DNA of 64,000 nt from Lampris incognitus. Lineage: Eukaryota > Chordata > Actinopteri > Lampriformes > Lampridae. The stretch lies in the NCBI RefSeq assembly GCF_029633865.1, contig NC_079219.1, forward strand, positions 59,040,002-59,104,001, given 5' to 3'. The position numbers and the translations under genes are program-made. The notes under the pieces are model-generated. The model saw nothing but the letters and a program-made list of their open reading frames with translations, did no database searches and was not told where the DNA came from. Each line of letters opens with the position of its first letter. Within the stretch, counting starts at the first letter, position 1. Positions 7,550 through 53,000 of this stretch are shown in pieces.

Positions 7550-9534
7550 TTGTCGATGACATGTTGATTTCTGGTTCTACCACTGAAGAACAGGATGCTA
7601 GGCTAGCTAGGCTAGAGCAAGCATCACAAGCTGCGCGATCACATGGGTTGAAACTAAACACAAAAAAAAAGTGAATTCAGAAAAACTAAAATCACTTACT
7701 TAGGTGAGGTGGTAACAGCTGATGGTGTCCAGAGCAGAGTGACGGCCATCAAGAACATGCTGCCACCTACAGACAAAGAGAGTGTACAACGTTTCCTAGG
7801 CATGGTAAACTATGTAGGCAAATTTGGCCCTAATCTAACTGCACACTGCACAAATGAGAAGCTCGTTATGCAACACCACTGATTGGTGTTGGAATAGTAA
7901 TCACAAAAAAGAGTTTGAGGAACTCAAACAACTGATCATGGAAGCCCCAGTCCTGAGGTTTTATGAAGAAAAAGGCAAAACTACAATCTGAGCAGATGCC
8001 TCTAAGTCAGGTTTAGGAGCAGTGTTGCTACAGCAGTACCGCAACCGATGGAGACCTGCAGGATGTGCCTCTAGAGCTCTTACAGCAGCAGGATGTAACT
8101 GTGCGCAGATAGAAAAAGGCATTTCCTCTGCCATATGCATGTGAGAAGTTCCATGTATTTATATATGGTAAAACAGTGGGCAGAGACTGATCATAAACCT
8201 CTAGTCACCATTGCCAAGAAAGGGCTGGTGAACACACCACCCAGGGTCCAAAGACTATTTTTGAGCATGCAAAAACATGACCTAGTGCTAGAGTACAGCC
8301 CAGGCAAAGAACTGCCAGTGGCAGACACCCTTTCCCCGGCGTAGGACGGTACTGAACCAAATGTCAAGTATGAACGAAATGAAACTGCATGTGAATCTAG
8401 TCAGAAAGAGCTGCCCAGTCTCCGACGAAATGTGGAAAAAAAGGTCTCAAGCTACTGCTGCTGATGAGATCCTACCAAAGACAATGAAAGGCATAAAATG
8501 TGGTTGGCCAGTAAATTCATTCCCTGCGCCATATGGCAATCTCATGGATGAGTTGTCAGTCATAGATGGAGTCTTATTCAGAGGTTCTAGAACAGTGGTC
8601 CCAGAAGTGTTACGGAAAGACGTGCTAAAAAGAATACACGAGGGCCATTTGGGGATGGACAAATGCAAAAGGCGGGCAAAAGCAGCTCTATACTGGCCCA
8701 AGATGAGCAGTGCAATAGAGGACACAGTCAGAACATGTGAAACCTGTTTAAAATACAGAAATAAACAGCACAAAACGCTAATGTGGGTTGAGAAAAATGA
8801 AAAGCTGACACTGTGGAGTAAAGTTGGGATAGATCTCTTTACACTGTATGGCAAGGACTATGTGATACTAGCGGACTATTATTCTCACTACCCAGAGATG
8901 GCGATACTGAAGGACACCCCCGCCAGTACTGTGATGACACACATCAAGTCATTCCTCACATGCCATGGACTACCCGATACAGTACAGTAGACAGACAACG
9001 GACCTCGGTTTAGTTGTCAAGCCTTCAGAGACTTTGCTGAGGAATACGGATTTAAGCATGTCACATCTAGTCCGTTATACCTGCAGTCTAACGGGCTGGT
9101 AGAGAATGGAGTTAAAATAGTCAAACTGCTGATCAAGAAAGCAGTGGACTCAGACTCTGGTCCTTATCTTGCTCTGTTAAAGTACGGAGCCACACCACTG
9201 ACCGATGGACAGTCACCCGCAGAACTGTTGTTCAACAGACAACTTAAAACAAGGCTACCGGTGTTTATAGAAACAGAGGCAGACCAGGGTAGCGACAAGG
9301 TGCTTCATGCCAAAATGAAAAAGAAGTGTGATCAAAAAAGGTACTCTGACAGAGGGGCGAGAGCACCTGAGCACTCCCTCTCCAAAAGACAGAGTTAAGA
9401 TGCATGATGGGAAAAGTTGGAACATTGAGGCACGTGTAGTGAAAGGTGTGGCACCAAGGTCATATGATGTCATGACACCTGAAGGGGTCACTTATAGGAG
9501 AAATAGGAGACATTCACTCATGGATGTATTATAG
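7550..9534 (+). mobile_element. Ty3/gypsy retrotransposon pol remnant
   Basis: Read across frames in order are the end of reverse transcriptase (a VDDM catalytic motif at about 7552-7566, then TYLGE and RFLGMVNYVGKF), RNase H (ADASKSGLGAVLLQ near 7994; ETDHKPLVT near 8186) and integrase. Integrase has an HHCC zinc-binding region (HEGHLGMDKCK at about 8634; TCETC at about 8733) and an rve core (VGIDLF, TDNGP, ENGVK). Multiple frameshifts and in-frame stops (for example at about 7990 and 8988) show it is dead. gag, protease, the 5' part of pol and recognisable LTRs are missing. This is an LTR retrotransposon relic, not a host gene. Confidence 0.85.
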
Positions 9535-15451: not shown

Positions 15452-28176
<12,725 letters not shown>

Positions 28177-38022: not shown

Positions 38023-38279
38023 ATAACCGTAGCATCTGTGACATAGACATCGTACTATGTAGGTGCACAAACTCTTAATTCAGACCGCTGGAGAGGAGGA
38101 GAAAAAAAAAAAGAATACAAGCAGTCAACCAAGCCTGGACTGCAGTAGACCATCTTCTGCTTTATATTTATTACCAGTATGACAGGTGAAAAGAAGACCA
38201 TAAAGTGCTGAAGTGTCCATAAAGATAACTACACTCCCTTTTCTTTTCTCTCTTCTCTCTCCCTTAATTCTCCGCAGCC

Positions 38280-38609
38280 ATGTCCATCAAGTATGATGGG
38301 CTGTCCCACTGTAAATTGGCCCTGGTATTTGCTGTGCTGATGGATCTACTTGGCGTGGTGTCTCTCTTGCTAGGGGTCTTCGCCCCACTGGAGATCCAAG
38401 GGCGGGATTTTGGGGACCTGCTGGTGTACTCGGGCGCTCTATTTGTGCTGATGTCCCTGGGAGGCTGGGTCATGTGGTATAGCGGAAACATTGAAGGGCT
38501 GACTTCCAAAAAGGAGCTGGGGGGACCCCTAGGGGGGGCCATGGAACGCCTTGCCTACTCCCTGAGCCGAAGGATACGGATGCCGAGGAGTCACAGCAGC
38601 CCCTCATGA
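38280..38609 (+). CDS. tmem238: TMEM238-family two-pass membrane protein
   Basis: A small membrane protein of unknown biochemical role. The 109-aa frame runs from ATG directly after an acceptor-like TCTCCGCAG|CC to TGA. Two hydrophobic segments are visible: about residues 11-33 (LALVFAVLMDLLGVVSLLLG) and 46-66 (LLVYSGALFVLMSLGGWVMW). A conserved GDLLVYSGAL block and WY-GN motif follow, as in TMEM238. The C-terminal tail is basic and Ser-rich. An upstream in-frame exon (36993-37035) could extend the N terminus. TMEM238 maps to 19q13.42 in human, in the same broader region as U2AF2 and CCDC106, which supports orthology. It converges with the JIP-like gene. Confidence 0.88.
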   Translation: MSIKYDGLSHCKLALVFAVLMDLLGVVSLLLGVFAPLEIQGRDFGDLLVYSGALFVLMSLGGWVMWYSGNIEGLTSKKELGGPLGGAMERLAYSLSRRIRMPRSHSSPS

Positions 38610-39880: not shown

Positions 39881-40307
39881 GGCCGTCCGGGTAGTGTAAC
39901 GGTCTATTCCGTTGCCTACCAACACGGGGATCGCCAGTTCGAATCCCCGTGTTGCCTCCAGCTTGGTCGGGCGTCCCTACAGACACAATTGGCCGTGTCT
40001 GCGGGGGGGGGGGGGGTGTGGATATGTGTTGCTGCACTAGCACCTCCTCTGGTGGGTCTGGGTGCCTGTTTGGGGGGGGGGGGGGGGGGGAATAGCGTGA
40101 TCCTCCCACGTGCTACGTCCCCCTGGTGAAACTCCTCACTGTCAGGTGAAAAGAAGCGGCTGGTGACTCCACATGTATGGGAGGAGGCATGTGGTAGTCT
40201 GCAGCCCTCCCCGGATCAGCAGAGGGGGCGGAGCAGCAACCGGGGCAGCTTGGAAGACTGGGGTAACTGGCCAAGTACAACTGGGGAGAAAAAAAAAGGG
40301 GGGGGGG
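39881..40307 (+). mobile_element. SINE S2, copy 2
   Basis: tRNA-like head (B-box CAGTTCGAATCCCCG), full body, and A/G-rich tail. It carries long poly-G expansions (39996-40016; 40071-40090), which may be genuine or assembly-sensitive. Confidence 0.9.
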
Positions 40308-40769: not shown

Positions 40770-43700
40770 TCAGAGGGCGGGGCTGGGCAGGGACGGGGTG
40801 GGACTCTGCCAGATGATCATGTGACTTCGCTCGGACCGCTGAGGCGCTGCTTGAGGTAAATCAGCCGATCCACCACTCGCATCATCTCCTGGAAGAGTCG
40901 GGGGATCAGTTGGGAGTTTTGATAAATTTGCGACAGCTGCCACTAATGTAAAACATCACAGAAGTTACGGGAGTCTGGCGGTTCCCACACAGAGTCAGGA
41001 CCCACTCACCTATTCGGAAGTTGATGTAGCCCTCTCCTCCACTGAGAATGAGCTGCGAGGTAGAAACAGTGCTGCTGTCGGAGGAGGTGTTCAAACAGCC
41101 TGCGGGACAGCAGCCATTATGTTGACAGTAAAACAGAGTCAAAATGTCCCCTACCGAAGAGACCTTCTTTCCTAGCCAGTAAGCCTTCAGAACCGGCTTC
41201 ACGTTATTCTAGTCAGGTGCTTACCAGGAGCGACGATGATGAACCTGACAGCTTGTCGGTGCCCATGGTAACACAGCTGTGCTGAGGCCAGAGAGCAATA
41301 CGGGATGGAAACTGACTCGGATGCTGGAGGATGAGGAGGACGAGTGGTCATTAGTACGGCAATGTCTCACACGGTCCATCTCCAAGAACATAAAATCAAA
41401 GTATGCATCAGACTCACTTATGGACAGCGGTAAAGAGAATATGGCACCGCTTCCTGTGCCCATCCACAGACGACCAGAGATGACTGTGAGAGAAGTGATC
41501 TGGAGAGGTGAGAGCGAAAGGAAGGCTGGGCCTGAAAAGCAGGAAACCGAGAAAAATATGTTAAAGCTGATTGGTGTGGGTAAATTCACATGGAAATATG
41601 CTTGTTGAGGGTGGTGAAAATTGGGGGGGGGGAGGGCTATGAAAACTTTCAACATCTGAATTACCCCAGAATAGAAAATGCAACCCCTGTACCAACCCAG
41701 TGTCTTGGTGACCAGCGGTGTCAAATCAACCTCCTGCAGCGGCCGACCGGTGGACCAATCAAAGAGCCTGAGGACTGGGTCAAGGCGACAGGACGTCCAA
41801 ACACCACTTCCGGCCGCACACAAGAAGCGAACCTGCTGCTCGCTACGTTCAGACACTGAGAATGAATGCTGGAAGAGAAGACGCAAAATGATGATGGTGA
41901 ACGTATCGTTACCGTCACAGGTCTGCACAGGTAAATGCAAACTAAAGACCTTTTTGAGAATTTCTAGTTTTGACATTGTGTCTCTCACCTCAACCTTCTG
42001 GCTGTCGATGTCAACCACATGCACCCGGTTCCAGTATCCCACCCATAAGCGGCCACTTTTGACGAGGCAGCAGCGAATAGGCTGTAGCGGGGTCGAGCCG
42101 AGTGGCATTATCTTGTGCGCCTGTAGATCCCAGCCACCTGCCAATAACACAGTTCTGCTTTCAGTCACCGAGGATCAACCACAGTCACCCAGCTACTGGG
42201 GAAGAGGAGTAAAAGCTAATTACCTGTGATGTGAAAAAAAAACGCCAACGTCCCGTCAGCCAAGCCAGCGATGACGTGACCCTTGGAATACCTGTTAGAT
42301 CACGATCGCAAAGTCAAGAGAACGTTTCTTTTTAACCTTGCACTCTTGCTGAACGAAGATGGGGAAAAAAAGCTTTGCATGCATTAACACTGCCAATACT
42401 TTACACCCCCCCCCTTTTTTTCCTCCCTGATTGTACTTGGCCAATAACCCTGCTCTTCCAAGCCGTCTCGGTCTCTGCTCCACCCCCTCCGCCGATCTGG
42501 GGAGGGCTGCAGACTACCACATGCCTCCTCCCAGTCCCCCCCCCCCCAAACAGGCACCCCAACCGACCAGGAGAGGCGCTAGTGCAGTGACCAGGGCACA
42601 TCCCCACATTCGGCTTCCCACCCGCAGACACGGCCAATTGTGTCCGTAGGGACGCTCGACCAAGCTGGGGGTAACACGGGGATTCAAACCGCCGATCCCC
42701 GTGTTGGTAGGCAACGGAATAGACCGCCACGCTACCCGGATGCCCGCCAACACTATGGACACACAACTGTCAAACTCACGTGAGCGAGTGAACGCCCTCT
42801 GAGAGAGAAACAGACTGCAGACAGCGCCTCCTGCTTGTGGAGGCAGAGTGTACCAGCACACTGTAAGGGAGAGAAAAAGAGAAACGGATAGAAAGAGAGA
42901 GTGTGAGACACACTGTTGACACCAAACCTCCTAATCAATAAATATTTTCTCGAGTGAACCGCTTGCTCAACACACTACCTTCCTTCCTGAGTTCCGATCC
43001 ACACTGTTCCCGAGCTGTCACCTGACAAGAGAGAGTCAAACACAACATCCTCCAAGTGAGCACTACTGACTTGCTGTAATTTATGCATAATTAGTTTTGT
43101 TAAAACATTAATTACCGTTTTTTGGGGGGGGGGGGATTTTCCCCCTTTTCTCCCCCAATTGTACTTGGCCAACTACCCCACTCTTTCGAGCCGTCCTGGT
43201 CTCTGCTCCACCCGCCTCTGCTGATCCGGGGAGGGCTGCAGACTACCACATGCCTCCTTCCATACATGTGGAGTCACCAGCCGCTTCTTTTCACCTGGCA
43301 GTGAGCAGTTTCACCAGGGGGAGGTAGCGCGTGGGAGGATCACGCTATTCCCCCCAGTTCCCCCTCCCCCCTCGAACAGGCGCCCCGACCAAACAGAGGA
43401 GGCGCTAGTGTAGCGACCAGCACACATACCCACATCCGGCTTCCCCCCCGCAGACACGGCCAATTCGGTCTGTAGGGACGCCTGACCAAGCCGGCGGTAA
43501 CACGGGGATTCGAACCGGCGATCCCCATATTGCCAGGCAACAATAGACCGCAACTCTACCCGGACACCTAAAAACGTTGTTAGTTGCTATATGGGCCGAA
43601 AATGTTACAGAGCACATGATATTATTTGTCCGTAGGTCAGTGGGTAGCCATGGTGATGAGTGTTTGCAAAACTGACCCATAGGAGGCACAGCACAAATGC

Positions 43701-46168
43701 AGAGAACAGGAGAGGTGGGCGGGAGGCTGAACTGATCCAGTACTGTATTGGACCGTGCCGGGTCGATCACTGTGATGTCACTGCAGGAGGCAGGGCCGGA
43801 AACTACCCACACAGAGCACTGGCAGGGAGGGGGAAAGGATGAGAAGTTTGGAAGGATGACAAGCACACCTGGTTGTTATGGTTGGACGGCACCGTGCATA
43901 GACGATTAGAGGAATATGAAGGGTGCTACTTCACTAGGGTAATAATGGCAGCCTTACCGTGGCCTCTCCTGAGACTTCAGGCGGCACTGCAACAGCACAG
44001 TTAAGCTTAAGAGAAAACAAAACACGTTAGCAATCACATGTGACCGCACCATGGGGCTGATGTAAAGGCTAGTAAAACCTACCGAGTGGGGTTTGCAGTC
44101 CTACCTTAAAAGTGGAGTCTCTCTGATCCAGCAATCTGAGCTGCATTAGAACAGGCACATCTTTGGGCTCGGGGATAGGTTCCAGCGATTCCTGCAATAA
44201 CAATATACAACCACCAACAGATTGTCATTAGAAACGCACAACTATGTATACATTTCACGGGGTAGCAGGGCGGGTTCAAGCCCTGTCAGAGGCACGAGTC
44301 ACTACCAGATTCATTCATTCATGGCAGCAAGCTAAGTAGGACACTCCAGACCTCCCTCTCCCCAGCAACACCCTCCAGCTCCTCCTGGAGGATCCCAAGG
44401 CCTTCCCAGGCCAGATTGGACATGTAGTCCCTCCAGCGAGTTCTGGGTCTACCCCGGGGTCTCCTCCCAGTTGGACGTGCCCGGTAAACCTCCAAAGGAA
44501 GGCGCCCAGGAGGCATCCTGATCAGATGCTCGAACCACCTCCACTGGCTCCTTTCGATGCGAAGGAGCAGCGGCTCTACTCCGAGCTCCTCACCCTATCT
44601 CTAAGGCTGAGCCCAGACACCCTACAGAGGAAACTCATTTCAGCCGCTTGTATCCGCGATCTCACCCTTTCGGTCACTACCCAAGGCTCATGACCATAGG
44701 TGAGGGTTGGAACCAAGACTGACTGGTAAATTGAGAGCTTTGCCTTCCGGCTCAGCTCCCTCTTCACCACAACGGTCTGGTACAACGTCCGCATTACTGC
44801 TGATGCTGCACCCATCCACCTGTCAATCTCCTGCTGCATCCTACCCTCTCTCCTGAACAAGACCCCGAGATACTTGAACTCCCTCACTGGAGGCAACAAC
44901 TCGTCCCCAAACCAGAGGGAGCAATCCACCATTTTCCGGTGGAGAACCATGACCTCAGACTTGGAGGTGCTGACTACCAGATTCAAGGGTGCTAATCTGT
45001 ACCTGACTATGTAGTGCTGACAAACCTGTGCAGGTTTCTCTTTTTGCACCTTTTTCAACCTTCACCAGATAAATGAGGAGTAAGTACAGTGTTTTCTCTT
45101 GTCTGTTGAATACCGAAAGCCTCTTTATTTGACGTTGCATTCTTACAATGAATGTGTTCTCTGCATTTAACCCATGCTATCGTATAGCAGCAGTGGGCAG
45201 CTGCAGCGCCCGGGGACCAACTCCGGTTCTTCTTCCCATTGCCTTGCTCAGGGGCACAGACAGGAGTATTAACCCTAACATGCATGTCTTTTTGATGGTG
45301 GGAGGAAACCGGAGCACCCGGAGGAAACCCACGCAGACACGGGGAGAACATGCAAACTCCACACAGCAAGGACCTGGGACGGCCTGGGGTTCGAACCCAG
45401 GACCTGCTTGCTGTGAGGCAGCAGTGCTGACCACTGGGCTGTTGGTCTGCGGGTGAGAAGCAGCTGTCACACTCCATCTTATAAACAGCAGGTCACAAAC
45501 AGAGCCGTTAATTTGGAAAAATATGCCGTGGTTGTCAGAATCTAAATATTTTGACAGCCATGGAATATTTTTACCAGCACGTCTGATACAGCGCCAGGGT
45601 ACATCCCAAACATCTTTATCCTAAAATGTAAAGTTAATAAATAGGACAGACGTTTTCTTTACTACTACTACTTAAAATGGAATCTCCTACTCCTACAAAC
45701 GAGCCTATTACTGACCTAATTTACATCTATTTCCCATGTGATCTGCATCCGGATAAGGAAGAAAACAAAATGCATCTTCGTGCACGCAGGGGAGTAGAAA
45801 TGTCATCTCTGCAGTCAGTAGTTATGAGTACTGCATCTTATTTTGAGGGTGTACATTTTACTCAGGCTCAACACAAACTTGGCAGAAACCAGTCTGATGC
45901 CTCCAGGTCAAACAGCCCCACATACAAACCTTTGACACATACACATACAAACCTTTGACCAGGGCAGTGACCCGAGCAGACTGGTTGAAACAGATCAAAC
46001 ACAAACCAGCTCAATAACCACAATGTGGGAGGAAGAAAAAAAACACATGGATAATAAATGAATAAATTATATATATATATATATATATATTAGCAGCTGA
46101 TGAGTGCGAGACGCACGAAACAGGCCTGTACTGCAATGTATTAAAATCTTTTTTCCTGTATCCGTGTT

Positions 46169-46208
<40 letters not shown>

Positions 46209-46974
46209 TAGATAGATAGATAGATAGATAGATTAATAAATATGTACTCATTTGTCAGCAAATCAGCTCCACCATGTTTAAGAACGGATGTGAAGGGACT
46301 CCAGATTCCCTGAAAAATCCTGTACCTAGCGCATCCGGGTGGCGTAGCGGTCTATTCCGTTGCCTACCAACATGGGGATCGGTGGTTCGAATCCCCGTGT
46401 TACCTCCGGCTTGGTCAGGCATCCCTACAGACACAACTGGCTGTGTCTGCAGGTGGGAAGTCGGATGTTGGTATGTGTCCTGGTCGCTGCACTAGCGCCG
46501 CCTCTGGTTGGTCGGGTCGCCTGTTCAGGGGGGGGGGGGACTGGGGGGAATAGCGTGATCCTCCCACGCGCTACATCCCCCTGGTGAAACTCCTCACTGT
46601 CAGGTGAAAAGAAGCGGCTGGTGACTCCACATGTATGGGAGGAGACATGTGGTAGTCTGCAGCCCTCCCCGGCTCAGCAGAGAGGGTGGAGCAGAGACCG
46701 GGATGGCTCAGAAGAGTGGGGTGATTGGCCAGGTACAATTTGGAGAAAAAAGGGAGGAGAAATCCAAAAACAAAACAAAACAAAACAAAAAAGCAGTGTT
46801 GCCCCAAATGGGAGTATAACAAGACAAGGAGTTGGGGATATTTAAATATATCTATCACTTCATACCATACATTTATCATATTCAAAACTGTTAAGATTAC
46901 AGAGGATTATTCTCAGGTCTTTGAGTTCTGAGGCACATAGATACAGGCTCTGTGCCACTAAAAGTTGAAATTGA

Positions 46975-47016
<42 letters not shown>

Positions 47017-50000
47017 GGATGTCATGACATTATTGGCTGAAATTGGTTGGTTCAAGCCTGCGTAAGCATGCATCATATTTTGTACTACAGGAAGAAATAT
47101 GACTGGATTTTGATATAAAAATACAAAGAAATTTATTTTTTCTATTTTTTTGTTGTTGCCTGTATTGTTAAATAGGTGACAATGTAACCGAGGATGTGAT
47201 AGAAAAGGTTAAAAAGGCGTTTTTCATTTCATCTCAACTTAAAGACATTAGGAAGAAGAAAGCCACTTTATTTGACATTGTATTCTCACGATGAATGAGT
47301 TCTCTGCACGTAACCGTGCGGTTGTACAGGAGCAGGGGGCAGCTGCAGTGCCCGGGGACCAACGCCACTTCTTCTTCCCATGCCTTTTTTTTTTCCTTTG
47401 GATTTTTTGCCGTTTTTCTCCCCAATTGTACTTGGCCAATCACCCCGCTCTCTGAGCCATCCCAGTTGCTGCTCCACCCCCTCTGCCGATCCTGGGAGGG
47501 CTGCAGACTACCACATGTCTCCTCCCATACATGTGGAGTCACCAGCTGCTTCTTTTCACCTGACAGTGAGGAGTTTCACCAGGGGGACGTAGCACGTGGG
47601 AGGATCACGCTATCCCCGCCCAGTTCCCCCCGCCCCGAACAGGCACCCTGACTGACCAGAGGAGGTGCTAGTGCAGCGACCAGGACACATACCCACATCC
47701 AGCTTGCAACCTGCAGAAATGGCCAATTGTTTCTGTAGGGACGCCCCGACCAAGCCGGAGGTAACATGGGGATTCGAACCGCAGATCCCTGTGGAGGTAG
47801 GCAACAGAATAGACTGCTACACCACCTGGACGCCCACATGTATGTCTTTTTGAAGGTGGGAGGAAACCAGAGCACCCAGAGGAAACCCACGCAGACACAG
47901 GGAGAACGTGCAAACTCCACACAGAAGGGACCTGGGATGACCTGGGGTTCGAACCCAGGACCTTCCTGCTGTGAGACAACAGTGTTAACTCCTGGGCCAC
48001 CATGCCCCCCAAGTAACCCCGGTTCTCTGAAACAGGAGTGAGGTATCTCACCAGACTACCCTCCTTGCCTGGAGTGAGGAAGAGGTGTGCTTACTTAGAT
48101 TTAAGGGAGAACGTTCCGCTGGGCTTTTCTAGCAGGAGGACGTCCCTCCTCTGGGGGGCAGATGTCTCGTCTGTATGCCAGTCAGGACTGGCATAGTGTA
48201 CAATAGCTTCTGGGGGACAGCGCAGGGGAGCGTGTCACATAGTGACACACCTCCCTCATGTTTCAGAGAACCGGGGTTCTTTTCTTAACCTAAAGTTCTG
48301 ATGACGGCAGACACTGCAAACCCCACACCCACTAGTTTTTGTTGCACAGCATTTGTAAAAAATGAAACCCAGTCACAACACAGCGTGCACACAACAAGAA
48401 CACATGCACAGTGAATACCGGGTGTGAAACATAAGGTTGGGACTGGAGGCAACATATCCAGTTGGGTGATAACAGTGGGTGTAAATGGGGTGATTGTGTA
48501 TTTGTGTTTGTAGGTATTTGTGTTTCTACCTGTGTGTGAGACATCGGCATGCTCCAGCCATTTATTTGCCGTTTGCCCAGAGTTTCCCAAACGTGGGAGC
48601 GAATTTCCCTGTAGAGCTCCCTCCTCCTGACACGTGGGGAGACGGCAGCGGGGGACACAGACCTACAGACAAGCCCCTAGTATCAATCTACATATTCACA
48701 ATAACGCAACTTGTTTACAAATATGATGCAAGACACAATACCATTTGCAAGACGGACATGGCCCAAGGGCCTAGCTTACTCAGTCTGTGTCTGAGTGACA
48801 GCCCGTAGTCGTGGCGAGCCGACAGGAGAGTGACTGAGCGCCGGGGACGCTGGAGTAGGATGCAGGACTACGGGCTCCTTATTTAGGCCAAACAAGCGGT
48901 TGAATCTGAAGTAAAAAGCACAGTGAGTTCTACTGAGAGTTCTACATCTGAATGCAACATATTACCTTAAAATGTCGGTTAAGGGGCGCCCGGGTGGCGT
49001 ATCGGTCTATTCCATTGCCTACCAACACGGGATCGCCAGTTCGAATCCCATTGCCTCCGACTTGGTCGGGCGTCCCCACAGACACAATTGGCAGTGTCTG
49101 CAGGTGGGAAGCTGGATGTGGGTGTGTGTCCTGGTGGCTGCACTACCGCCTCCTCAGGTAGGTCGGGGCGCCTGGTCGGGGGGGAGGGGGAACTGGGCAG
49201 AATAGCACGATTCTCCCACGCGCTACGTCCCCCTGGTGAAACTCCTCACTGTCAGGTGAAAAGAAGCGGCTGGCGACTCCACATGTATGGGAGGAGACAT
49301 GTGGTAGTCTGCGGCCCTCCCCGGATCGGCAGAGGGGGTGGAGCAGCGACCGGGACGACTCGGAACAGTGGGGTAACTGGACGGGTACAACTGGGGAGAA
49401 AAATCCTCCCCCCCAAAAAGTCTTTTAAGGCTTTGTTCATGGTACTACCTCCCAACAAATCACAGATCACTTATGAGCGGGGGGTGTTTTTGCATGAATC
49501 AAGACAGAATGGGTGGAAGGGTCGTCAAACTAAAACAAGCTCAGGCGCAGGCCATGTTCTAGCTCCCCTGTATCTTAACTGACAGATGTGCCAGACACCA
49601 TCAGCGGTGTCTTCCTTTCTGCAACATGTTTCTATAAATGAAATATCATTTCTGTCATCAGAGGATGATTATCTGGAGGAGTAACAGAAATTTAATATGT
49701 TAATGAGCATGTGAATAACACAGGACCTCCAAGTTCTTTGGAGACCAGTTTATTTACCATAATATACCTCGCTCCCTCGCTTTATGGCTAACATATGGTC
49801 ATGTGCCTGGACTACATGCCGTAATCTAGTTAAACACTAACCGTCTCCATATGCTTGTCCTCTTCTCCTCCGGCATCCTCTCCTCTTTTGTGACCCTGTC
49901 AAATAAGATAAAGAAAAAAGTCAACGACACTGAAAAACATCTGATGTTGTTTTGTTCATGTTGATGTGTTGAGTCTTTTGCATTTGTTGTCTCATTTAAG

Positions 50001-53000
50001 CCTGATTTTATTATTTATTTTGTCATTTTCTGCCTTTATCTGACAGTGATAGTCAAGAGAAAGACAGTAAAGGCAGGGGACAGAGAGGGGATGACATGCA
50101 GCAAAGGGCCCAGGCCGCATCCGAACCCAGGCCGCTGCAGTAAGGACTCAGCCTTATGTGGTATGCGCTTTACCAGGTGAGCCACCAGGGCGCCCCCTAG
50201 GCCCGTATTTTTTCTTTTTTCTTTTGCATTTTCCCCCCTTTTTCTCCCCAATCATACTTGGCCAATTACCCCACTCTTCCAAGCCGTCCCGGTCTCTGCT
50301 CCACCCCCTCTGCTGATCCGGGGAGGGCTGCAGACTACCACATGCCTCCTCCCATACATGTGGAGTCGCCAGCCACTTCTTTTCACCTGACAGTGAGGAG
50401 TTTCCCCAGGGGGACGTAGCATGTGGGAGGATCACGCTATTCCCCCCAGTTCCCCCCCCCCCCTGAACAGGCACCCCGACCGACCAGAGGTGGTGCTAGT
50501 GCAGCGACCAGGACACATACCCAAATCCGGATTCCCACCTGCAGACACGGCCAATTGTGTCTGCAGGGACGCCCGACCAAGCTGGAGGTAACATGGGTAA
50601 CACCGGCAATCCCCGTGTTGGTAGGCAATGGAATAGACCGCCAACGCCACCCGCATTCCCCCTCTGTTAGAGGAAACTTAAAACAGTCACCTGAGGGTCT
50701 GACTACGCCTGACCGCCTCTTGCAGCTCAAACAGACGCTCCTTATACTGGTTCTTCTCCATCACCACACGGGCCATTTCAGAGCGAGAGAAGCGGCGCAT
50801 GGATGTGGGCAGAGAGTCCTGAAAGAAAAGACGTGGATTAGGAAACGATATGATCTCACATCACTAACAATAACTGACACCCTATAGCTGCAGAATTCTC
50901 ATACAGTAGCTCTAGTATGCTGTGCTTCACAATTGTAATTAGCAACAACAAAAAAGTCCTCTTACATCAGGGTCTTCAGACTTGCATGCTTCTAGTTCTT
51001 TCCGAAGCCTGTGAAACAAAGTACAAGTTGTATTATGCAATAACAAGCACATTTTTTTGTCTAAAATGAAAATTATAGTGCACAATATTAAAAGGAGCTG
51101 TGTGTAAGATTTTCCCTCCTTCCCTAAAGCACAAGCTAGTAAATATCTGTCAGGGTCTGTGAGTGACAGTGATTAAAACAAGACTACGACTAAAAATCCA
51201 CTCATTGGGCGGCAGGTGGGGAGACACCCTGGACAGGCCGCCAGGTCATCACAGGGCCCATCCACACACACACACCCACGGACAATTGTACGGCTGATTC
51301 ACCTGACCTACATGTCTTCGGACTGTGGCAGGAAACTGGAGCACCCGGAGGAAACCCGCACAGACACGGGGAGAACATGCAAACTCCACACAGAGGACGA
51401 CCCGGGACGACCCCCAAAGTTGGACTACCCCGGGACTCGAACCCAGGACCTTCTTGCTGTGAGGCGACCGTGTTAACCACTGCGCCACCGTGCCGCACGA
51501 CTAAAAATAAGGCTGATAATTTAGTTCTAAAGTTTTCAACAGGTACTTTCAGCATGGAGGGTGAATTCTGTAAGAAACCCTGACACCACTATTTTTATGA
51601 TGCTTTGAGCCACAACGTGGAATTACAACTATGCATTGTGGTGTCCTCTGCAACGCCAGCTATGCAACATGACACATACATATTTATTTCATGGACTTTA
51701 GGGGATAATCTGTGTCACCGAGCAAATGAAATCTAGGGGGTTCAAAGTCGCTGTTGCACTTGAGACCTGTCTCACTGAGCACCCTTGGGTAATCTGTGGT
51801 AGACCTGGGCCATCTGGCCACATCGATAGCCACTTTATCAGGTACACCAATCTAGGTGGGGGTTGAATCCCTGTTTACCTTCACAACAGCCTGACTTCTT
51901 CGAAGCATGAGTTCAACTAAATGCAAGAGACGTTTCGTAGGGATTTTGGCCGGTGCCGACTCGATAGCATCAAACCCTGCCTGCAGATTTGTTGTCCTGT
52001 TCTATTGGATTAGGATCTGAGGACTGTGCAGGCCTTTGGAGTCCACTTAAGTCACTGTCAAGTTCGGGAAACCAGCTTTGCAGTGATGCTTGCCTATGAC
52101 ATGGCACATTATCCTGCTGGAAGCAGCCACCGGAAAAAGGGAAGATTGTGGCCATAAAGGGAGGCACACGGTCGGTAACGATGCTCAGGTACGCTGTGGT
52201 ATTCACCTTGTTTTAAACAACCTAATGTGTGCCAAGAAAACATGCCGCGCAACGTCACAACACTTCCATCACCTAGACATTGATACAGGGCAGGATGGAG
52301 TCAGGCTGTTGGCGCCAAACTCTGATCCTACCATCTGCATATCGCAGCAAAAATAGACTTTCGGGGCGTCCGGGTAGCATAGCGGTCTATTCTGTTGCCT
52401 ACCAACATGGGGATTGCTGGTTTTGAATCCCCGTGTTACCTCCGGCTTGGTCGGGCGTCCCTGCAGACACAATTGGCCGTGTCTGTGGGTGGGAAGCCAC
52501 ATGTGGGTATGTGTCCTGGTCACTGTACTAGCGCCTCCTCTGGTCGGTCAGGGCGCCTGTTCAGGGGGGAGGGGGAACTGGGGGGAATAGCGTGATCCTC
52601 CCACCCGCTACGTCCCCCCGGTGAAACTCCTCACTGTCAGGTGAAAATAAGCAGCTGGAGACTCCACGGGTATGGGAGGAGGCATGTGGTAGTCTGCAGC
52701 CCTCCCCGGATCAGCAGAGGGGGTGGAGCAGAGACCGGGGTGGCTCAGAAGAGTGGGGTAATTGGCCAAGTACAATTGGGGAGAAAAAAAAGGGGGGAAA
52801 CCAAAAAAAGAAAAGAAAAAGATTTTTGTCAGATCAGGTGACGTTGCTCCATCTTCAGTTGTCCAGTTCTGGTGATCCCTTGACCCCAGTAGCCTCGTCT
52901 TCCTCAAACACATCTTCATCTCAAACCCATCTAGTAAGAACTTGTAACAGGTTAGCACCGATTGACTGGAGAGACCTTTCCTAGGAAAAGAGTTGTTGAT

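Follow-up and report, generated by a model that had tools for sequence, protein, structure and literature searches.

An intronic hammerhead ribozyme motif as a probable solo pseudo-LTR copy of a Penelope-like element family

The hammerhead motif at positions 46093–46134 of the window (the whole stretch of 64,000 nucleotides that was analysed) was assigned, with a probability of about 0.9, to the ribozyme of a Penelope-like element (PLE), and the window copy to a solo, 5'-truncated pseudo-LTR inserted in an intronic (AT)n run. The interesting object is the population of copies and not the window copy, which itself is probably an ordinary, inert relic. PLE hammerheads are already known as a kind, having been described in the relevant passages of PMC7761336, PMC6155905 and PMC6431247. 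In the literature search, whose reach did not extend to the two main PLE hammerhead papers, no paper treating this hammerhead family by title or opening abstract was found.

The original prediction had described a complete type I hammerhead at this place. Its sequence and coordinates proved to be exact, and the motif stands far above the chance level. Stems of 4 (I), 5 (II) and 3 bp (III) surround the core, with the open end at stem I, and the parts are as follows.

46093–46134, + strand: type I hammerhead ribozyme (by sequence, descriptor match and 113 exact genomic copies)
46093–46096, + strand: stem I, 5' strand GCAG
46097–46103, + strand: catalytic core CTGATGA
46104–46116, + strand: stem-loop II, GTGCG-AGA-CGCAC (stem strands 46104–46108 and 46112–46116, loop AGA)
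46117–46120, + strand: catalytic core GAAA
46120–46122 and 46127–46129, + strand: stem III, ACA and TGT, with the loop GGCC at 46123–46126
46120–46129, + strand: stem III with its loop, a perfect 10-nt palindrome ACAGGCCTGT for which a 10-bp intermolecular stem III is possible (predicted fold)
46130–46131, + strand: expected cleavage site between A46130 and C46131 at the GUA triplet (from hammerhead rules)
46131–46134, + strand: stem I, 3' strand CTGC

An extension of stem I is possible past the bulged A46092, as 46085–46091 pairs with 46135–46141. The invariant-core features of type I hammerheads, taken from the corresponding part of PMC3088659, were all found in the window motif: CUGAUGA ... 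GAA(A), the A15.1-U16.1 pair and a NUH cleavage triplet. A strict descriptor combined the core with a stem I of at least 4 bp, a stem II of at least 5 bp, a stem III consisting of the A-U pair and 2 bp, and a NUH site. With both strands of the window scanned, 46093–46134 was the only match. When loops of up to about 80 nt were allowed, a scan of both strands of Markov-2 sequence totalling 96 Mb gave 2 descriptor matches by chance. With compact loops, the chance expectation in Markov-2 random sequence was 8.6e-6 per window and 0.13 per Gb when G-U pairs were allowed, as estimated from 90 million conditioned samples that resulted in 75 matches with G-U pairs and 0 with Watson-Crick pairs only.

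The search with Rfam covariance models, which the original prediction had named as one that could refute it, gave a divided answer. No match at gathering score was obtained in the whole window; under permissive filters applied to 2.2 kb, RF02275 Hammerhead_HH9 was detected below its threshold, with 24.2 bits compared to 52 and an E value of 0.0046. The window motif has GCAGCUGAUGAG...CGAAAC...GU-CUGCA in common with this model. Recognition by a covariance model is diagnostic of a type I hammerhead and does not define it. Gathering-level matches were also absent from 20 loci with family copies, and as every copy in these scanned loci was missed, hammerhead families of such kind are easily overlooked by Rfam. 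Pattern searches of the viral contigs and genome contigs collections resulted in 0 matches each.

Copies were counted in the genome to which the window belongs (537 contigs, 1.48 Gb). For the exact 42-mer the count was 113 (50 + 63), the window copy included. The core followed by 13 nt and GAAACAGGCCTGTA, in which stem III and its loop are kept exact, was found 1,076 times (508 + 568), and the reversed pattern 0 times. With any six bases replacing AGGCCT, 5,082 places (2,483 + 2,599) were obtained compared to 6 (1 + 5) with the reversed-pattern control, whereas the tail word CCTGTATCYGTGTTGA, located downstream of the ribozyme, gave 2,036 (1,017 + 1,019) and its control 0. The shortness of the motif and its being missed by the Rfam gathering scores could suggest a chance resemblance with no descent from a ribozyme. 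However, about 9e-6 matches are expected per window, and thousands of family copies stand against the 6 controls; the copy number refutes a chance origin, which keeps practically no probability. The original prediction of a genuine type I hammerhead of retroelement origin was borne out. The motif is not a module by itself, being one of thousands of dispersed copies. A second hammerhead subfamily, TGACAG-CTGATGA-TTGCTTATGGCAT-GAAACAGGCTTGTA-CTGTCT, was observed at L003:1501-1534, L126:265 (-) and L132:606 (+), and by script it accounted for 45 of the 100 listed places of the six-base-free pattern.

The copies sampled for stem II, ends, junctions and the loop-III pair were those that head the lists, and all of them are located on contig C1. 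Among 100 listed copies, stem-loop II was the same as that of the window copy in 16. The stem II cells were paired in 444 of 500 cases compared to 440.2 ± 2.7 after shuffling (224 of 2,000 shuffles reached 444), and the complete set of five pairs was present in 53 of the 100 copies compared to 54.8 in the shuffles. Covariation of stem II as a proof of selection was rejected, pairing in these 100 copies not going beyond what the shuffles reach, and therefore individual genomic copies give no sign of selection. The genomic copies appear to decay, largely via CpG loss.

The insertion and the host-gene frames around it are given below.

46068–46089, unstranded: (TA)n at the 5' junction, the presumed target (sequence)
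46090–46170, + strand: whole insertion, a short solo pseudo-LTR copy running from TTAGCAG (46090) to GTGTTGA (46170), defined by identity to L125 and L048 and by the end classes
46171–46205, unstranded: 3' junction, an (AT)n run that gives way to (GATA)n as far as about 46232 (sequence)
41221–42174, − strand: open frame holding host-gene WD40_2 sequence (Pfam PF19056, E 2.5e-12)
50687–50860, − strand: open frame holding a JIP3/JIP4-like host-gene exon (phmmer to JIP3, E 2.8e-10)

The insertion comprises 81 bp within an (AT)n run, with its 5' end at the 5' edge of the ribozyme and a short 3' end; the exact ends were inferred from the comparison copies and from the end classes of 99 tail-anchored copies. 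Positions 46090–46167 were identical to L125 and L048 at 77 of 78 positions, and the median identity between the window copy and the family was 92% (66 of 88 distinct copies, aligning over at least 74 columns). AT microsatellites, predicted to bracket the motif, were seen at 46068–46089 and from 46171 onwards. Since the minus-strand JIP3 and WD40_2 frames flank the insertion, it very likely sits in an intron, antisense to a JIP3-like gene; the matches of these two frames support what had been proposed for the location and the strand. The vertebrate host of the original prediction agrees with a genome of 1.48 Gb and with the presence of a TMEM238-family gene in the window.

Lying antisense, the motif is unlikely to act in the RNA of the gene itself. 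Control of the JIP3-like gene by a domesticated hammerhead in its intron, in the manner of HH9 in RECK of amniotes, would be consistent with the complete core, the intronic location and the weak similarity to HH9 (24.2 bits). However, motif and gene occupy different strands and the pre-mRNA of the gene thus does not contain the motif, 112 identical copies are present elsewhere in the genome, the copy was inserted between the halves of an AT run as other family copies are, and the HH9 score is far under the threshold. Domestication is therefore very improbable, and an intronic hammerhead of the amniote HH9/HH10 type was rejected as the motif is an antisense repeat copy.

The carrier element was searched for with 121 aa from L018, as the minus-strand frames upstream of this copy hold motifs that resemble those of Penelope-like proteins. 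The comparison with the genome resulted in 1,833 candidates, of which 150 were scored and 20 loci examined. In 8 of these 20 GIY-YIG-like fragment loci, a hammerhead was located on the same strand 644–812 nt downstream of the fragment; of the remaining ones, 1 had it upstream on the same strand (L138), 4 had it on the other strand and 7 were without the strict motif. In L125, whose copy is one of the two near-identical ones mentioned above, a PLE-like ORF fragment precedes the hammerhead by about 690 nt on the same strand. L136 and L127 contain open frames with lengths of 484 and 547 aa, respectively. The carrier ORFs presumably encode a reverse transcriptase (RT) and a GIY-YIG endonuclease, judged by eye on YRDD, CxCR...CPLxGxC and VIY...YVGLTE. 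All 8 aligned fragments have CxCR...CPLxGxC and 7 of them VIY or LIY...VGLTE, the exception at the second motif being L018.

Two carrier ORFs gave 0 matches in Pfam and 0 in NCBIfam, 8 endonuclease-region fragments gave 0 matches in Pfam, and the search of the carrier ORF against PDB resulted in chance-level ribosomal matches only. As no library recognises the carrier ORF, the PLE assignment leans on anatomy. The collection of copies over the genome, by which the original prediction meant to define the carrier, delivered the repeat family and its linkage to PLE-like ORFs but no support from profile libraries. The carrier is known here from fragments, with neither a complete copy nor direct repeats flanking a single ORF among the loci examined. 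On the basis of anatomy and of the motifs read by eye, a PLE is the best-supported carrier; the Penelope-like element, named beforehand as a known carrier of hammerheads, agrees with the 8 of 20 ORF loci and appears to fit the anatomy.

The ends were analysed in 99 distinct tail-anchored copies from 90 loci (L031–L120). The 3' end was long in 42 copies and short in 57. At the short ends, at least (TA)3 followed within 14 nt in 47 of 57 cases, compared to 0.8% of the 14-mers of the window, and the long ends were followed within 40 nt by TA or CA repeats in 33 of the 39 recognised. The extra tail of the long end, read by eye from L050, is about 60 bp. By script, 47 of the 99 anchored copies were found head-to-head with an inverted partner. 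Inverted pseudo-LTRs in a head-to-head arrangement are described for the PLEs of A. vaga (Adineta) in the relevant part of PMC3846280. The family thus displays the PLE traits of an inverted pseudo-LTR arrangement, 5' truncation, an optional tail and an AT-rich target, and the AT runs around the window motif are regarded as its target because copy ends and targets match the published PLE reports.

The arrangement of neighbours also bears on a small non-autonomous retrozyme family, which would consist of tandem repeats with circular RNA and would owe nothing to a PLE pseudo-LTR. Short ribozyme-bearing copies are indeed numerous (2,036 tail anchors), and according to the vertebrate sections of PMC7229834 vertebrate retrozymes have type I hammerheads, a short stem III and dimeric action as well. 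However, a hand count of the neighbours at up to 500 bp among 100 listed tail-anchor places gave 12 head-to-head pairs, 1 tail-to-tail pair and only 1 same-strand pair of the 14 (24233865 and 24234145, 280 bp apart), and the longer copies run upstream into the PLE-like ORF. A retrozyme origin is therefore improbable. In the same sections of PMC7229834, the satellite or retrozyme hammerheads of newt, salamander and axolotl share with the window family the vertebrate type I form, a weak stem III, a palindromic loop and dimeric cleavage; they form tandem repeats of about 330–350 bp, in contrast to the dispersed, often head-to-head and PLE-linked copies described here.

Compared with the PLE hammerheads as reviewed in the relevant parts of PMC7761336 and PMC6155905 (Lunse 2017 among their sources), the window family has in common the type I core, a retroelement carrier, a short stem III, thousands of dispersed copies and the expected dimeric action. 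The PLE motifs in these parts are usually without helix III, whereas the window family has a 3-bp stem III, a GGCC loop and a 10-nt palindrome. For the Anolis element Poseidon, the accessible text of PMC11167929 reports AT-rich cleavage, an internal start of reverse transcription and a hammerhead at the junction of pLTR and ORF. With PAc of Anolis carolinensis the window family shares a hammerhead located close to the RT start region, a "tail" that arises from two internal RT starts, and AT-rich targets. The differences are that the RT ORF of PAc begins at stem II, whereas the AUG within CUGAUGA of the window family opens a frame of only 14 codons in 40 of 53 copies (e.g. L002, L028, L140), and that the extra tail of PAc is 30–40 bp, compared to about 60 bp. 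The repeat hammerheads of Aedes and Nematostella with a palindromic stem III (PMC3088659) also have a possible 10-bp dimeric stem III; their hosts are different, and no carrier element is named in the relevant text.

The 5' ends of the 99 copies, expressed relative to the expected cut, fell beyond -50 in 16 copies, at -50 to -30 in 33, at -29 to -7 in 4, at -6 to +3 in 18 and at +4 to +24 in 28. The class -50 to -30, to which the window copy belongs, corresponds to the 5' edge of the ribozyme and -29 to -7 to its interior. The interior thus holds 4 of the 83 ends between -50 and +24 whereas a uniform distribution would place about 25 there (binomial p 7e-9, with bins set after the data were seen, inverted partners that are not independent, and end positions uncertain by a few bases). 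Several of the ends at +4 to +24 lie in poly-T and are weak, L051 is unaligned and L052 is misplaced at 0. A possible cause of the interior gap is the stalling of RT before folded RNA, or a transcript 5' end near -42. A sharp footprint of the cut site was not found among these ends: 15 of the 18 at -6 to +3 belonged to head-to-head pairs, whose junctions, 14 of them printed, were varied, and therefore no cleavage footprint is claimed.

The predicted folds of the window motif depended on the number of strands. The minimum-energy fold of the monomer, -11.8 kcal/mol, was not a hammerhead, the hammerhead fold having -7.9 kcal/mol. With two strands the minimum-energy fold was a double hammerhead with a shared 10-bp stem III at -36.1 kcal/mol. 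Among 51 distinct copies with an intact core, a long intermolecular stem was predicted in 43 and the hammerhead was the monomer minimum in 0. The loop GGCC ranked 5th of 256 loops for the dimer energy. As the pair folds as a double hammerhead and the single copy folds otherwise, any cleavage would probably be dimeric. The monomer result is suggestive only, because energy models ignore the catalytic core, and it makes the presumed self-cleaving ability of the window copy doubtful for the monomer. Dimeric hammerheads are described for newts and axolotl and for repeat hammerheads in the relevant parts of PMC7229834 and PMC3088659, respectively.

The dimer can be followed further in a loop-III pair that is unpaired in the monomer and paired only in the dimer. 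Three genome-wide counts resulted in 1,008 G-C, 314 G-T and 26 A-C forms, the G-T pattern also catching the second subfamily in at least 8 of 100 listed places (by eye), which trims the excess slightly. A sample of 55 from 100 listed places contained 30 G-C, 12 A-T, 10 G-T, 2 A-G and 1 A-C (Fisher p 2e-5 for the four main cells). In the second subfamily, with its TTGCTTATGGCAT stem II, the G-T form was present in 42 of 45 places. Decay alone predicts equal numbers of G-T and A-C because the contexts AGG and CCT are reverse complements without CpG. The excess is a hint that the dimer pair was maintained in the elements that propagated, and it could also stem from a few expanded lineages.

The same palindrome could act at the DNA level only: together with the stems it would aid the element's cDNA or DNA, through fold-back priming and head-to-head junctions, with RNA cleavage irrelevant to mobility. 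The many head-to-head pairs, 47 of the 99 anchored copies, would agree with such a role, and so would the Anolis results in the available text of PMC11167929, where insertion in vitro still took place with mutated hammerheads and no RNA was found to end at the cut. On the other side, thousands of copies retain an intact catalytic core, and 5' ends are seldom at the AGGCCT palindrome (3 of 99 between -12 and -6). A purely DNA-level role is unlikely, although it keeps some weight.

The assignment to a PLE ribozyme draws on the repeat family, its copy number, the linkage to PLE-like ORFs, the end classes, the target bias and the predicted dimer fold, and from these we infer a course of cleavage, dimer use in cells and transposition. 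The PLE RNA would bear the hammerhead in its pseudo-LTRs. The element protein would cleave AT-rich DNA and begin reverse transcription within the RNA 3' of the ribozyme, and two RT start sites would lead to the short or the long 3' end. Many cDNAs would stop just past the 5' edge of the ribozyme, giving 81-bp copies, the window copy among them. Through the palindromic stem III, neighbouring hammerheads may pair and cut as a dimer during processing of the PLE transcript. The role of hammerheads in PLEs is called unknown in the part of PMC7761336 that deals with them. It is tentatively proposed, as a possibility rather short of even odds, that this lineage of PLEs maintains the hammerhead for dimer use and that the folded ribozyme acts as a boundary for reverse transcription; the signals for it are the counts of the loop-III pair and the scarcity of 5' ends in the ribozyme interior. 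If true, the copies of this genome preserve a record of how the ribozyme folded and paired as a dimer while the element transposed. With their readable ends, these thousands of copies could show whether reverse transcription is affected by cleavage, by the pairing of dimers or by folding as such.

In the surroundings of the insertion, a copy of a SINE, tRNA-like by eye, was located at 46331–46751, 160 bp from it. The SINE is about 420 bp long and has 8 long copies in the window, the other 7 being 86–90% identical to the first:

46331–46751: first copy
22175–22591: SINE copy
39886–40294: SINE copy
43143–43564: SINE copy
47410–47833: SINE copy
48990–49403: SINE copy
50235–50656: SINE copy
52366–52789: SINE copy

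A near-palindromic hairpin at 45519–45570 resulted in 30.4 of 93 bits with mir-549 (below threshold, E 0.0013). Elsewhere in the window, a 2.9-kb tandem array at 6–2913 has a unit of about 43 bp composed of (ACT)n and CTTTAACTGAAGAATTCTGTC. Pfam matches were obtained for a retroelement integrase zinc-binding domain at 8292–8990 on the + strand (PF17921, E 2.4e-16), for an RRM domain at 17619–18134 on the − strand (PF00076, E 3.1e-7), whose frame looks U2AF2-like, and for a TMEM238 family protein at 38268–38609 on the + strand (PF15125, E 7.6e-26).
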